A DNA stretch of 43,236 nt from Mogibacterium sp. Its GTDB lineage: Bacteria > Bacillota > Clostridia > Peptostreptococcales > Anaerovoracaceae. Shown one piece after another: positions 18,055 to 34,786 of this stretch. Location: assembly GCA_024403035.1 (NCBI GenBank), contig JAKSSP010000011.1:1-43236 (forward strand). Direction: 5' to 3'. Positions within the stretch are counted from its first letter, which is position 1; each line of letters begins with the position of its first letter. The notes under the pieces were generated by a model. It made no database searches and was not told where the DNA came from. It was given only the letters and a program-made list of their open reading frames with translations. The position numbers and the translations under genes were made by a program.

Positions 18055-18373
18055 CGGCAGCTTATACCTTTTAAAAAAACATAAAACGTGCATCTTCACA
18101 TTGTGTTCGTTTTTTTGCCACATAATTTTCAACAAAACCAAAACGCCTTATTGTTCAAGGTCTGCGACTTTTCCACAAAGATTTTTAAAATCGTATACAA
18201 TCTTTTCCACTTATGCATGTGGAAAAGTCCGCAACCTGTATCGTTGGAATTTCAACGATAGAACGAGGTTTTTCCTTGTGTCAACAGGATTTATCCACAG
18301 TTTTTAAAAAAATTTTTGAGCACGCGTTTTGTTCGATTTCGTGAAACGCGTGAAACATGGGAAAGGAACATTG
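18055..18373. other. AT-rich spacer with DnaA boxes and nested palindromes
   Basis: This 319-bp spacer holds no gene. It contains one perfect DnaA box TTATCCACA (18291-18299), two TTTTCCACA-type boxes in opposite orientation (18169-18177 and 18218-18226) and a third inverted near-copy (CTTTTCCAC, 18202-18210). The segments 18163-18177 and 18218-18233 are inverted copies apart from one inserted base. An imperfect palindrome lies at 18241-18258, a run of A and T at 18300-18317, and a 9-bp inverted repeat at 18321-18352. The content resembles an origin or DnaA-binding locus, but no dnaA, dnaN or rpmH is nearby. No clear promoter or terminator could be assigned. Confidence 0.6.
18321..18352. repeat. 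9-bp inverted repeat upstream of the alaX-like gene
   Basis: CACGCGTTT (18321-18329) and AAACGCGTG (18344-18352) are perfect inverted copies around 14 nt, ending 21 nt before the start codon. It could be an operator or a hairpin in the mRNA leader close to the AAAGGA ribosome site. Confidence 0.6.
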
Positions 18374-19606
18374 ATGAGTACTGAAAGGATCTACAGAACA
18401 GACCAATATGCCACAGAAAACGAGGCCGTTATAACCGCGGTCCGCGAGAAAAACGGCTGTGATGTGATAGCCTGCGACGTTTCCGTCTTCTATCCTGAGG
18501 GCGGCGGACAGCCTTCGGACGAAGGTACGGTATCCGCAGGAGAGTCTGCGGTATTCGGGATAGTACGCGCCTCTGATGATGATCTGTTTGGCGACGTCTG
18601 GCACGAGACCGACGCCCCTGCAGGCACATTCAAAGTTGGTGACAAGGTAGTTCTTGCCATCGACTGGGACCTTCGTTTCCGCCACATGCAGCGCCACTGC
18701 GGCGAGCATATGCTGAGCGGAGCAATGTACTCGCTTTTTGGCGGCACAAACAAGGGATTCCACATGGGCGCGGGATACATCACCATCGACATAGACCTGG
18801 ACGGCCGCATGCTTACAGATGAAGAACTCGATCTGGCTCAGAGCGCGGTCAACGAGGCTGTGTGGGCAGATCTTCCCGTCACCGTTACATGGTTTGACGA
18901 CTATGAGTCATCACTCGCCCTGCCTGTAAGAAAGCAGGTGCCGCATGACGGACGCGTGTCCGTCGTCACCGTAGGTGACCCCGGCGATCCTTTCGACTGT
19001 ATCGCCTGCTGCGGCACCCACCCGTCAAGTTCGGCCGAAGTCGGGCTGGTCGCCATCTACAAGTGCGAGCCTAATAAGGGCATGAACCGCGTCTACTTCG
19101 ACTGCGGCAAGGCGGCATTCGAAAAACTGGCCGCGGACTCAGCGCTTCTGACTGACGCGGCAAAGCGCTACTCCTGCTCCCCTGCCGACCTCGTCTCGAG
19201 GCTCGACGCCGAAGCGGAGAACGTGTCCGCGCTCAAGGCACGCCTTGCAGGCCTGAGTTCATACGTGAAGGATATTGAGGCCGCAAAGATCGAAGACGCT
19301 GTCAGGGCCGGCGGCCTTGAACATTACGTTTACGAGTCCGATCTTTTCAGCACGGACGATCTGCTGAAGCTCGGCTTTACAGTGATCAACGAGATTCCGG
19401 GCCTCTTCCTGATAATGAAGCATCCGTCTGCCAGTACCTGCCTGCTGCTTTCATCGAGCGATGAATACAAGTGCGGGCAGCTGGTAAAGGAATACGCTCA
19501 GAGGTTCAACGGGCGCGGAGGCGGCCGTCCGGACAACGCAAGGGCCATATTCACCAGCCTCAGTGACATGCAGGCGTTCGCGGACGCTGTTTGCGCTTCG
19601 CATTAA
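18374..19606 (+). CDS. Alanyl-tRNA editing protein (AlaX-L type, with DHHA1 domain)
   Basis: The 410-aa protein is related to the editing half of AlaRS and hydrolyses mischarged Ser- or Gly-tRNA(Ala). An N-terminal beta-barrel contains YPEGGGQPSDEG. The editing site shows the zinc motif HxxxH as RHCGEHMLSG near residue 105 and the second pair as CCGTHP near residue 218. A C-terminal DHHA1 domain ends with FNGRGGGRPDNARA. The synthetase catalytic and tRNA-recognition domains are absent. A frame opens 15 codons earlier (18329), but the ATG at 18374 follows AAAGGAACATTG and begins at the family's usual N-terminus. Confidence 0.9.
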   Translation: MSTERIYRTDQYATENEAVITAVREKNGCDVIACDVSVFYPEGGGQPSDEGTVSAGESAVFGIVRASDDDLFGDVWHETDAPAGTFKVGDKVVLAIDWDLRFRHMQRHCGEHMLSGAMYSLFGGTNKGFHMGAGYITIDIDLDGRMLTDEELDLAQSAVNEAVWADLPVTVTWFDDYESSLALPVRKQVPHDGRVSVVTVGDPGDPFDCIACCGTHPSSSAEVGLVAIYKCEPNKGMNRVYFDCGKAAFEKLAADSALLTDAAKRYSCSPADLVSRLDAEAENVSALKARLAGLSSYVKDIEAAKIEDAVRAGGLEHYVYESDLFSTDDLLKLGFTVINEIPGLFLIMKHPSASTCLLLSSSDEYKCGQLVKEYAQRFNGRGGGRPDNARAIFTSLSDMQAFADAVCASH

Positions 19607-31523: not shown

Positions 31524-32093
31524 CTAGATTATCTTTATCTCAAAATCGAAGTCCGACTTGTACAGCACTACTTCATCGCCCTTGCCGGCAGCCCTTGCCT
31601 CGCGCGTCTTGTTCATGTCTATGACACGCTGGTTCTCAGAGCCGCAGTATACAAGCGTAAGGTTGCGGAGTTTTTCCTCATAACGGCCGTCCACCAGTAT
31701 GTCGATCATACCCAGCAGCTCTCCGACCGCAGAATCGCTCTCCGCTTTGGCCTCAAGCTCCTCAAGAGTATAACCGCTGTAGCTCATGAGGCTGTAGCGC
31801 ATGCCTTTAAGATAGCGGGCCAGATCGACGAGCGCTCTCGCCTGCTCAAACGGCTCGCCGCCTGAGAAGGTTACATCCTTGATGTTAGGCTTTGCCTTTA
31901 TCCCGTCGAGTATATCCCTGACGGTCATATCGTATCCACCGTTAGGATCCCACGACTCAGGGTTGTGGCAGCCCTTGCAGTGATGAGGGCATCCCTGCAC
32001 AAAAAGGACGTACCTGAATCCCGGCCCGTCGACTATTGACTCAGGCTCGATGCCGCATACTCTTATGACTTTGCTCGTATCCATCTCTTCCAT
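31524..32093 (-). CDS. nrdG: Anaerobic ribonucleotide reductase activating protein
   Basis: The 189-aa radical-SAM enzyme generates the glycyl radical on the class III RNR. The cluster motif is CPHHCKGCHN (CxxxCxxC) near residue 34, preceded by SIVDGPGFRYVLFVQG, and SGGEPFEQ follows near 77. The frame is open for 23 further codons upstream, but those lie in a terminator; the ATG at 32093 has AGAGG 8 nt upstream and fits the family start. It lies downstream of the small glycyl radical gene and an intervening terminator, so it is expressed by read-through or from an unseen promoter. Confidence 0.93.
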   Translation of the reverse strand: MEEMDTSKVIRVCGIEPESIVDGPGFRYVLFVQGCPHHCKGCHNPESWDPNGGYDMTVRDILDGIKAKPNIKDVTFSGGEPFEQARALVDLARYLKGMRYSLMSYSGYTLEELEAKAESDSAVGELLGMIDILVDGRYEEKLRNLTLVYCGSENQRVIDMNKTREARAAGKGDEVVLYKSDFDFEIKII

Positions 32094-32112
32094 GGCTGCG
32101 CCTCTTCTTTCA

Positions 32113-32152
32113 TAAAAATAGCCGCCGACCGCTTTCCGGGCCTGGCGGCTAT
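32113..32152 (-). terminator. Terminator between the small glycyl radical gene and nrdG
   Basis: On the minus strand ATAGCCGCC (32144-32152) pairs perfectly with GGCGGCTAT (32118-32126) and is followed by a run of T to 32113. It ends 20 nt before the nrdG ATG and includes the ground where nrdG's ribosome site begins. Confidence 0.85.
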
Positions 32153-32171
32153 GTAAGATCATAACGGTCGA

Positions 32172-32339
32172 TTAGTTATGGGACAGACCGTGTTTTACTC
32201 TGTCCTCTACCTCGGCTCTCTTGCCGTTGTTGAATCTGTCGAGTGTGCCTACGAGATATCCTGTGATCCTTCTGATTCTTTCGAATTCCACACCTTCTCC
32301 GACCTTGCCGTTGATGTTCTTTACTGCCTTGTTATTCAT
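32172..32339 (-). CDS. Stand-alone glycyl radical domain of class III ribonucleotide reductase
   Basis: This 55-aa protein aligns by eye with the extreme C-terminus of NrdD. ERIRRITGYLVGT carries the radical-bearing Gly at residue 27 (R-x-x-GYL), followed by LDRFNNGKRAEVEDRVKH, the conserved end of the domain. The NrdD encoded just upstream lacks this segment. The ATG at 32339 follows GGAGG with 6 nt spacing; a frame five codons longer is less likely. It has its own promoter (32382-32409) and terminator. The likely role is to supply the glycyl radical in trans to NrdD, as YfiD/GrcA does for pyruvate formate-lyase. The assignment of the domain is firm; action in trans is inference. Confidence 0.85.
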   Translation of the reverse strand: MNNKAVKNINGKVGEGVEFERIRRITGYLVGTLDRFNNGKRAEVEDRVKHGLSHN

Positions 32340-32381
32340 AACGTACCTCCGCACTCTCTACTCGCTTTTTTATGCTTGTTT

Positions 32382-32409
32382 ATTATATCTCAAATCACGC
32401 ATTTGTGAA
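32382..32409 (-). promoter_or_regulatory. Promoter of the small glycyl radical gene
   Basis: TTCACA (32404-32409) and a perfect TATAAT (32382-32387) are separated by 16 bp on the minus strand. The leader before the ATG is about 35 nt. Confidence 0.7.
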
Positions 32410-32457
32410 GTAATATTAATGTATATTGTTGTTTTTTTACATATAACCACATCATGT

Positions 32458-32499
32458 TGTGGATAAGCCTGTGGAAAACCCTGGGGATAAACCACAGGC
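32458..32499. promoter_or_regulatory. DnaA-box cluster upstream of the small glycyl radical gene
   Basis: On the minus strand there is a perfect TTATCCACA (32458-32466), a TTTTCCACA (32470-32478) and a related TTTATCCCC (32483-32491). GCCTGTGG (32467-32474) and CCACAGGC (32492-32499) form an inverted repeat that could also act as a hairpin after nrdD, though no U-run follows. The boxes are 50-80 bp upstream of the -35 element of the next promoter. Confidence 0.65.
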
Positions 32500-32509
32500 T
32501 CCCCTTCAA

Positions 32510-34786
32510 CTAGTGGATGCAGTCGCAAGGAACAGGTACGCTTGGGTACTTCATGCGAAGCTCATTCAGTCTCTCGATAGTGACAGGCTCGCCCTCGCGT
32601 CTTCCGCATCTTGGGCAAACGTCATCGATGACTCCCGTGTATCCGCAGACAGGGTCTCTGTCTACCGGATGGTTGACCGAACCGTAGCCAACACCTGCTT
32701 CCTTCATGAACCTTATGACCGATTCGAAAGCTTCAGGATTCTTTGCGGTATCGCCGTCCAGCTCTACATAGCTGATGTGGCCCGCGTTTGTCAGGTCATG
32801 ATACGGCGCCTCGATCGCGATCTTCTCGAACGCTCCGATCGGGAAGTACACAGGCACATGGAAGGAGTTTGTGTAGTAATCCCTGTCCGTGATGCCAGGC
32901 AGCTTGCCGTACTTCTCTCTGTCTATCTTGACGAATCTGCCGGAGAGTCCCTCAGCCGGTGTAGCCAGCAGAGTGAAGTTGAGTCCGGTCTCCGCGCTCT
33001 TTTTGTCGCAGAACTCTCTCATGTGCTTGATGATCTCAAACGCCTGCTCTCTGACTCTTTCGTCCTCACCATGATGCTTGCCTGTAAGAGCCTTCATCGT
33101 CTCAGCAAGTCCGATGAATCCTATGGAGAGTGTGCCGTGCTTAAGGATCTCAGCTACGCTGTCATCAGGTCCGAGATTGTCGGAGTCGATCCAGATACCC
33201 TGTCCCATCAGGAACGGATAGTTGCGGCCCTTCTTTGTGCACTGGATCCTGAATCTGTGCAGCAGCTGTCTCGCAACAAGTTCCATCATGGCATCCAGCT
33301 TCCTGTAGAACACTTCGAAGTCCCTGTTGGACTCGATCGCGAGCCTTGGCAGGTTGATCGATGTGAAGCTGAGGTTTCCTCTGCCGCATACTACCGCCTT
33401 CTTAGGATCATGGCTGTTGGCCATAACTCTTGTACGGCATCCCATGTAGGCAACTTCTGAATTGTAATCGCCCTCTTTATAGAACTTCAGATTGAACGGA
33501 GCGTCCAGGAAACTGAAGTTAGGGAACAGCCTTTTTGCACTGCATCTGATGGCCAGCTTGAAGAGATCGTAGTTAGGATCTCCCTCGTTGTAGTTGATGC
33601 CTTCCTTGACCTTGAAGATCGATACCGGGAAGATCGGTGTTTCTCCGTTTCCGAGTCCCGCCTCTGTGGCGAGCAGGAAGTTCTTGATGACCATGCGGCC
33701 TTCAGGAGTCGTATCGGTTCCGAAGTTGACCGAGCTGAACGGTACCTGAGCGCCGGCTCTCGAGTTCATGGTGTTGAGGTTGTGGATAAGGGCCTCCATA
33801 GCCTGGTAGGTCATCTTGTCCGTCCTTGCCCATGCTGCCTCGGCGGCCTGAGCGCTGCATCTTACCAGCTGATCTCTTGTGAGTCCGTCTACCCCGCCTG
33901 TCTTGTCGAACCACTCGCCCAGCACTTCGCCGTACGAGCCGTTTGTAGCCAGAGCCGGAGCCTCGGCCTCAGCCTTGATCTTGTCAGTGATCGCCTTTGC
34001 GTCCGCATACGCCACATCGAGCTTCGCGGCGATTATTTCAGTCAGCGCAGAGAAGTATTCCTTTATATATGTCCTTGCGACGCCCGGCGCCATAGCGTAG
34101 TCGAAGTTAGGTACCGACTGTCCGCCGTGCATCTCGTTCTGGTTGGCCTGGATCGCGATGCATGCCAGTGAAGCATAGCTCATGATCGACTGCGGCTCTC
34201 TGAGGTAGCCGTGGCCTGTGCAGAATCCGTCCTTGAAAAGCTTTATCAGGTCGATCTGGCAGCATGTCTCGGTGAGCATGTAGAAATCCTTATCGTGGAT
34301 GTGGATGTCGCCGTTGATATGCGCCTTTGCGATATCCTTAGGCAGTACGTAGTTGTCTACAAAGTACTTAGCGCCCTCGGAACCGTACTTCAGCATGGTG
34401 CCCATCGAAGTGTCACCGTCGATGTTGGCGTTCTCTCTCTTGATGTCCGCATCCTTGGAGTAGGAGTAAGTGAGCTCGTTGTAGATGTTCATCAGGTCGG
34501 ACTCGGCCTCTCTGATCTTTGCGTGCTCAGCGCGGTAGAGGATGTATGCCTTGGCGGTCTTTTCCCAGTCATACTTGATGAGCATAGCCTCGACGATATC
34601 CTGCACCTGCTCGACTGTGCAGGTCTCGCCTTCAAGCTGCTCTACGACCTTCTTGGTGAGGTAAGTGAAGTCGATGCTCGACATCTTTTCGCCGTCTACA
34701 GCCTTGTTCGCTGCGTAGATGGCGTTAAAGATCTTAGACTCATCGAACGGCATTTCCTTGCCGTCTCTTTTGATAATGCTTTTCAT
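32510..34786 (-). CDS. nrdD: Anaerobic (class III) ribonucleoside-triphosphate reductase, catalytic chain without glycyl radical domain
   Basis: The 758-aa protein reduces ribonucleotides to deoxyribonucleotides in anaerobes. Residues 1 to about 95 form an ATP cone (IIKRDGKEMPFDESKIFNAI). The catalytic barrel includes HINGDIHIHDKDFYM, AGAQVPFSSVNFGTDTTPEG and VVCGRGNLSFTSINLPRLA, with the thiyl-radical Cys region. The C-terminal zinc ribbon reads DPVCGYTG...VCPRCGR: three Cys (714, 724, 727) with Asp at 711 where a Cys is normal. The chain then ends in a short tail (GEPVTIERLNELRMKY... PCDCIH) with no RxxGYL radical motif. The missing domain is encoded by the next gene. GGAGAGAG precedes the ATG. 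Confidence 0.93.
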   Translation of the reverse strand: MKSIIKRDGKEMPFDESKIFNAIYAANKAVDGEKMSSIDFTYLTKKVVEQLEGETCTVEQVQDIVEAMLIKYDWEKTAKAYILYRAEHAKIREAESDLMNIYNELTYSYSKDADIKRENANIDGDTSMGTMLKYGSEGAKYFVDNYVLPKDIAKAHINGDIHIHDKDFYMLTETCCQIDLIKLFKDGFCTGHGYLREPQSIMSYASLACIAIQANQNEMHGGQSVPNFDYAMAPGVARTYIKEYFSALTEIIAAKLDVAYADAKAITDKIKAEAEAPALATNGSYGEVLGEWFDKTGGVDGLTRDQLVRCSAQAAEAAWARTDKMTYQAMEALIHNLNTMNSRAGAQVPFSSVNFGTDTTPEGRMVIKNFLLATEAGLGNGETPIFPVSIFKVKEGINYNEGDPNYDLFKLAIRCSAKRLFPNFSFLDAPFNLKFYKEGDYNSEVAYMGCRTRVMANSHDPKKAVVCGRGNLSFTSINLPRLAIESNRDFEVFYRKLDAMMELVARQLLHRFRIQCTKKGRNYPFLMGQGIWIDSDNLGPDDSVAEILKHGTLSIGFIGLAETMKALTGKHHGEDERVREQAFEIIKHMREFCDKKSAETGLNFTLLATPAEGLSGRFVKIDREKYGKLPGITDRDYYTNSFHVPVYFPIGAFEKIAIEAPYHDLTNAGHISYVELDGDTAKNPEAFESVIRFMKEAGVGYGSVNHPVDRDPVCGYTGVIDDVCPRCGRREGEPVTIERLNELRMKYPSVPVPCDCIH

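Follow-up and report, generated by a model that had tools for sequence, protein, structure and literature searches.

The window analysed here is the whole 43,236-nucleotide stretch of Mogibacterium sp. contig JAKSSP010000011.1. Its reverse strand carries three consecutive genes of a class III ribonucleotide reductase (RNR): nrdD (32510..34786), a small gene encoding a stand-alone glycyl radical domain (GRD; 32172..32339) and nrdG (31524..32162). The small gene lies in the middle, 170 bp from nrdD, and it is this division of the enzyme between two genes which is described below. The product of nrdG is the radical SAM (S-adenosylmethionine) activase (TIGR02491, 139.9 bits versus a cut-off of 126.1), so that the dedicated activase of class III RNRs is found alongside.

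Based upon Pfam and NCBIfam matches the 758-amino-acid (aa) NrdD is composed of an ATP-cone, which Pfam also matches, a 10-stranded barrel and a zinc ribbon, and lacks a GRD. The sequence stops after the zinc ribbon and matches positions 1–531 of the 562 of Pfam NRDD; an initial annotation, made from the sequence without database searches, had stated that the nrdD product ends here with no radical motif, and the halt of the NRDD match bears this out. NCBIfam NF005497 is matched over positions 2–711 of 746. In an alignment with the solved NrdD of Prevotella copri (chain 8p23), the best stretch spans residues 285–705 and a second one residues 7–244.

Positions 532–562 of NRDD are found in the 55-aa product of the small gene (33.8 bits versus a curated cut-off of 26.2), which aligns to residues 707–738 of 8p23. 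The two proteins jointly span the C-terminal half of the P. copri enzyme to its end, which confirms that the radical domain is encoded by the separate downstream gene, as had been claimed. Gly27 of the small protein (codon 32259..32261, in the motif RRITGYLVGT) aligns with chain residue 715. In P. copri NrdD the radical glycine is Gly711 and the last residue of the GRD is 739 (PMC11226230). Chain residue 715 is most likely this glycine, a tag of four residues explaining the offset (743 versus 739 residues). At E ≤ 1 the Pfam matches of the small protein are PF13597 and a chance match to Pinin, with no other glycyl-radical family, and its NCBIfam matches are to NrdD models only. Thus it is a small stand-alone GRD protein, as are GrcA and YfiD, but does not belong to their pyruvate formate-lyase (PFL)-type Gly_radical sequence family. 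The gene looks to be under purifying selection, the rates of nonsynonymous (dN) and synonymous (dS) change against eight relatives being 0.025–0.059 versus 0.50–1.30.

Cys450 of NrdD (codon 33437..33439, YMGCRTRV) is by its motif the thiyl-radical cysteine. Together with C175 and N471 it is invariant in a 42-row alignment, which was made from loci having nrdD and the small gene in phase, with the stops between them read as Q. We take the roles of the three residues to be those of C79, C290 and N311 of T4 NrdD; the spacing agrees, C290 to N311 and C450 to N471 both being 21 residues. By homology, then, the enzyme belongs to the class III RNRs: the NRDD barrel, the ATP-cone and the catalytic Cys/Asn motif are all present, while the GRD is not part of the same polypeptide and NRDD 532–562 sits in a separate open reading frame (ORF). 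The NrdD looks complete except for the radical-holding part, and its tail, GEPVTIERL, is plausibly a remnant of an old radical domain. The genome to which the window belongs (1.46 Mb, 76.9% complete) gave no other NRDD match and none to PF02867 or TIGR02505; the second full-length nrdD which might have made the small gene dispensable was therefore not found in what is available of this genome.

Occurrence of the split NrdD

When GTDB species genomes were scanned with the 55-aa protein at least 591 stretches matched. Of these, 562 encode a relative; the analysis covered the best 80. With the small protein as query, such a scan finds the split by design. The 80 comprise 65 short stand-alone GRDs, 13 longer forms, described below, and two GRDs within fused NrdDs. 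An NrdD lies upstream in the locus of 57 of the 65 short GRDs, and all 57 of these NrdDs are without a GRD of their own; the co-occurrence of truncated NrdD and small gene, which had been suggested as a check, thus held throughout. In the genomes of the other eight there is likewise an NrdD with a match ending at 531–532. The record titles name Clostridia, Bacilli, Fibrobacter, Succinivibrionaceae and Desulfovibrio. Among the 57 loci, which include one with the zinc ribbon missing in the assembly (L091, left out of the trees below), the gap between nrdD and the small gene ranges from 4 to 284 bp; in 52 of them nrdG comes next downstream, in the same orientation. In a sample of 60 genomes from the family of the window, the NrdDs of G000 and G049 (L264) also end near 531, away from a contig edge, with an adjoining GRD. 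A split nrdD-GRD-nrdG set was seen as well on a 90.5-kb circular record of Subdoligranulum variabile listed as a plasmid (OY725842.1; L265:3634-6629).

We searched 41 genomes with a split pair for PF02867 (class I/II RNR), TIGR02505 (monomeric class II) and NRDD. The split NrdD was the only RNR detected in 26 of them, two being the named strains Massiliimalia timonensis Marseille-P3753 and Succinivibrio dextrinosolvens DSM 3072. As cells cannot grow without an RNR, the split enzyme is in all likelihood functional.

The two genes need not be adjacent. Six truncated nrdD genes in five genomes (L266–L270 and L273) have no GRD within about 1.8–2.4 kb downstream, five of the six being followed by nrdG. 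A stand-alone GRD is present elsewhere in every one of the five genomes, which implies that the GRD acts in trans with the truncated NrdD. A full-length NrdD was not found in four of the five; the fifth, G005, has one along with a longer-form GRD, and its truncated NrdD (G005:C18, L273) stops at 539 and is not followed by a GRD. In G253 and G257 the longer form is the only NrdD-type GRD found. The unlinked genes, together with the 57 loci and the genomes lacking another detectable RNR, argue for the functional split enzyme proposed in the initial annotation.

A quick tree of NrdD cores without the GRD columns was built from 107 of 116 rows, nine near-duplicate or damaged rows having been removed by eye. 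On it the split label needs nine changes, at least five of them forced by starred branches; on a 100-row tree, from which seven distant rows were also removed, it needs ten. A single origin, with the 49 split rows as one clade, was rejected (100 rows, p-AU 1.2e-5). The pattern may have come about by repeated splitting, by re-fusion or by transfer, and such trees do not tell the first two apart.

Signals in the spacer

Upstream of the small gene, on its strand, lie a GGAGG ribosome site (32346..32350) and a sigma70-like promoter site, TTCACA-16-TATAAT (32382..32409), matching 11 of 12 positions. Four sigma70-like sites were found in the region versus 2.8 expected, so that the match alone proves little. 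In the window and seven relatives, all eight sequences have TTYAYA at the -35, TANAAT at the -10 and GGAGG at the ribosome site, and an upstream block like AATATACA is largely kept; the remaining spacer varies in length and sequence. Farther upstream (32458..32490, same strand) are three DnaA-box-like 9-mers (TTATCCACA, TTTTCCACA and TTATCCCCA) at 12-bp spacing. The window holds seven such 9-mers versus 0.87 expected, by a pattern set after seeing them. Comparable repeats occur in four of the seven relatives (L034–L036 and L045) and are absent from L037, L038 and L044. A promoter and DnaA boxes had both been placed between the genes from sequence inspection; the promoter-like columns hold up across the clade, and the DnaA-box-like repeats in part of it. 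Separate regulation of the small gene is likewise supported in the clade of the window and not elsewhere, the gap in other loci being as short as 4 bp, which makes co-transcription likely there. A second trio of DnaA-box-like 9-mers is present at 18169-18299 of the window, upstream of an ORF (18329-19606) which by eye resembles an alanyl-tRNA editing protein.

Radical domains outside the split locus

A longer form of the GRD protein was found in 19 of the 60 genomes of the family sample. It is of about 92–129 aa (one of 180 aa by earliest start) and consists of the same GRD preceded by an N-terminal part with the pattern ITGNAS.EEAQAYVDYLE.KYGRKL.SLDI..DGDYADL.Y. Full-length NrdD accompanies it in 16 of the 19, while in the other three (73–92% complete) no NrdD was found. 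Of the 13 longer forms in the GTDB scan 11 are in genomes with full-length NrdD, in one case in two contig pieces. Searched against Pfam, NCBIfam and PHROGs, the short and longer forms matched only NrdD-type models above chance and have no family of their own there. Recurrent neighbours of the family-sample longer forms (L245–L263) are purB/purA or alanine racemase-like genes, named by eye.

Several genomes near that of the window also possess extra short GRDs, and 20 of these copies, from eleven genomes, were taken for neighbourhood analysis. Thirteen are in four genomes (G237, G238, G259 and G260). Twelve of the 20 (L144–L152 and L154–L156) lie amid conjugation genes, with shared neighbours judged by eye and L151 being the weaker case; near the other eight no conjugation genes were seen. 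The GRDs in the conjugation clusters are of 53–87 aa and number up to four per genome, in four genomes. The neighbours of L154 include by Pfam a type IV secretion coupling protein, PrgI and a TraG/VirB4-like ATPase, with a TrbL-like protein just below cut-off. In Candidatus Crickella equi an extra GRD gene (L157:3378-4840) is flanked by genes for rubrerythrin and a Crp-type regulator, which fits a link to oxygen.

A relative is also encoded on 292 viral contigs of IMG/VR. Among the best 80 (L164–L243), which were analysed, the radical motif is present in 79, the motif count leaving out L198, for which no frame was obtained; there are 74 distinct cores, and no GRD lies within a long NrdD frame. 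For 77 of the 80 neither NrdD nor NrdG was found in the flanking sequence, which extended to at most 5 kb and was shorter near contig ends. Contig L190 resembles a host nrdD-GRD-nrdG region, and L179 and L208 carry a truncated NrdD and a separate GRD. The check for phage genes covered part of the viral contigs: 102 neighbour proteins pooled from 15 loci included phage hallmark families, and terminase, portal, tail and clamp-loader genes were observed in L193, L226, L164 and L221. Ten proteins beside viral GRDs gave three named phage matches, two matches of unknown function and five without a match. The viral contigs include two of 238 kb (L237) and 252 kb (L221). Eggerthella phage EL753P1 (L244), the one examined among 15 matching deposited phage records, has a truncated NrdD with a GRD-like stretch behind it, the frame of which is interrupted in the record.

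Interpretation and comparison with known systems

We consider it very probable, on the strength of these sequence comparisons, that the locus encodes a class III RNR split into a truncated NrdD and an obligate, probably exchangeable radical subunit of about 5–6 kDa. The small protein would dock in the C-terminal groove of the NrdD barrel, in the place of the fused GRD. NrdG and S-adenosylmethionine would, judging by homology, make the glycyl radical on Gly27, with the small protein either free or docked. From there the radical would move to Cys450 of NrdD, and reduction of nucleoside triphosphates would presumably proceed as usual, the catalytic residues being invariant. Oxygen cuts glycyl radical enzymes at the radical glycine, and for that reason the split may turn the irreversible loss of an enzyme of about 85 kDa into the loss of a cheap, swappable part. 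Such a part would also explain the extra copies, those in conjugation clusters and viruses, and the longer form beside full-length NrdD. The split, its conservation and spread, and the unlinked GRD genes are there in the genomes; that exchange of the subunit after cleavage by oxygen is the purpose of the split is a natural but unproven reading, made by analogy. The analogy to YfiD/GrcA and the exchangeable subunit put forward initially find support in the genomics, namely the extra copies in conjugation clusters and on viral contigs, and to that extent only.

Recoding (stop read-through or frameshifting) or RNA splicing might instead join the two frames into one protein. The small frame is indeed in phase with nrdD in 23 of the 57 loci, in some with a single stop between, but it is out of phase in the other 34 and several in-phase loci have two to six intervening stops. 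As frames 0, 1 and 2 are taken in 23, 21 and 13 loci a general recoding mechanism is excluded; the same figures and the recurrence of the arrangement exclude sequencing error, in line with the initial view that this is not a simple frameshift. Moreover, the small genes have a Shine-Dalgarno match of 5–6 out of 6 in 53 of 57 cases and an ATG start in 55, under a start rule which favours both, and the promoter-like columns in the clade of the window and the GRD genes unlinked to truncated nrdD likewise make such joining highly improbable. We give almost no credence to the notion that nrdD is a decaying or mis-assembled gene with the small ORF as its broken-off end. One might cite for it the many metagenome-assembled genomes, the interrupted frame in EL753P1 and the loss of the zinc ribbon in L091, but the arrangement recurs in 57 loci of several phyla, named strains included, dN is far below dS, and 26 of the 41 genomes yielded no other RNR. 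Finally, the small protein might be a mere repair part, equivalent to GrcA, for an oxygen-cut enzyme, with the radical domain of the truncated NrdD coming from an unseen source. The longer form, which is found beside a full-length NrdD in 16 of the 19 genomes of the family and 11 of 13 in the wider scan, would suit such a role; in truncated-NrdD genomes such as G253 and G257, however, the only NrdD-type GRD found stands alone and would have to serve constitutively, and we regard this explanation as very unlikely.

Several observations weigh against an obligate two-piece enzyme, or limit its reach. The window genome being 77% complete, another RNR could be missing from it; many source genomes are metagenome-assembled, and the completeness of the 41 split genomes is not given. 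Another full-length or partial NrdD is present in 11 of the 41 and a PF02867 match in five, one of which overlaps the 11 (15 genomes in all). In an even class sample of 147 genomes only three truncated NrdD cores away from a contig edge were among the matches listed (G000, G160 and G201, all ending near 531 with an adjoining GRD), which makes the split a minority form in that sample. Of 50,697 deposited phage records only 15 matched and, where the feature was named, it was mostly annotated as NrdD. For oxygen repair as the purpose, the grounds are analogy and a single gene neighbourhood.

Taking the split RNR as the preferred explanation, one might go further and propose that gut anaerobes, phages and conjugative elements share interchangeable class III RNR radical cartridges. 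Hosts with truncated NrdD would depend upon the cartridges, hosts with full-length NrdD would use the longer form as a spare, and mobile elements would bring their own to keep or restore deoxynucleotide synthesis after oxygen damage in a host newly entered or hijacked; we see the chances of this as evenly balanced. RNR supplies the DNA precursors in anaerobes relying on the class III enzyme, and in a two-piece RNR the radical, which is sensitive to oxygen, would reside on a very small and possibly exchangeable subunit. The presence of this subunit in phages and conjugation clusters would make the supply of the RNR radical a target in host takeover, and the split enzyme should be a tractable system for studying the activation of a GRD by NrdG. 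We found no published description of this kind of split NrdD or of an NrdD spare part in a search which left the subscription literature mostly out of reach, and priority is thus unproven.

Canonical class III RNRs (P. copri, 8P23; phage T4, 1H78) have the same barrel, ATP-cone, zinc ribbon, Cys/Asn motif and NrdG partner, and the same GRD sequence, FERIRRITGYLVGT...DRVKH. Unlike in these, the domain with the radical glycine here has a gene of its own, which in some genomes is not linked to nrdD. The split class II RNR of P. aeruginosa, NrdJa/NrdJb, is also a natural two-chain RNR, of another class and with another split (PMC9669993, PMC4520616). Phage nrdD genes may also be in pieces, through introns and inteins or as in phiAS4, but these are single-phage interruptions or unexplained breaks (PMC3653736), and no conserved separate GRD.

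The closest parallels are GrcA/YfiD of E. coli and Y06I of phage T4, cofactors of PFL, which are likewise small stand-alone GRDs, phage-borne in the case of Y06I, and can act in trans. There is a precedent in E. coli, where PflB G734A produces formate in vivo with the support of GrcA (PMC12338860); a glycyl radical enzyme can thus make use of a GRD supplied in trans. In Andorfer 2021 (PMC8683613) only PFL spare parts are given as validated, those for other glycyl radical enzymes being considered possible; the proteins described here are candidates for such parts. Unlike GrcA, YfiD and Y06I the small protein is of the NrdD-type sequence (PF13597) and is, for the truncated NrdD, the only GRD and no spare. 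The form of about 95 aa, with its N-terminal part followed by a GRD, is built like YfiD, and with it the GrcA/YfiD-PFL arrangement appears transposed to RNR.

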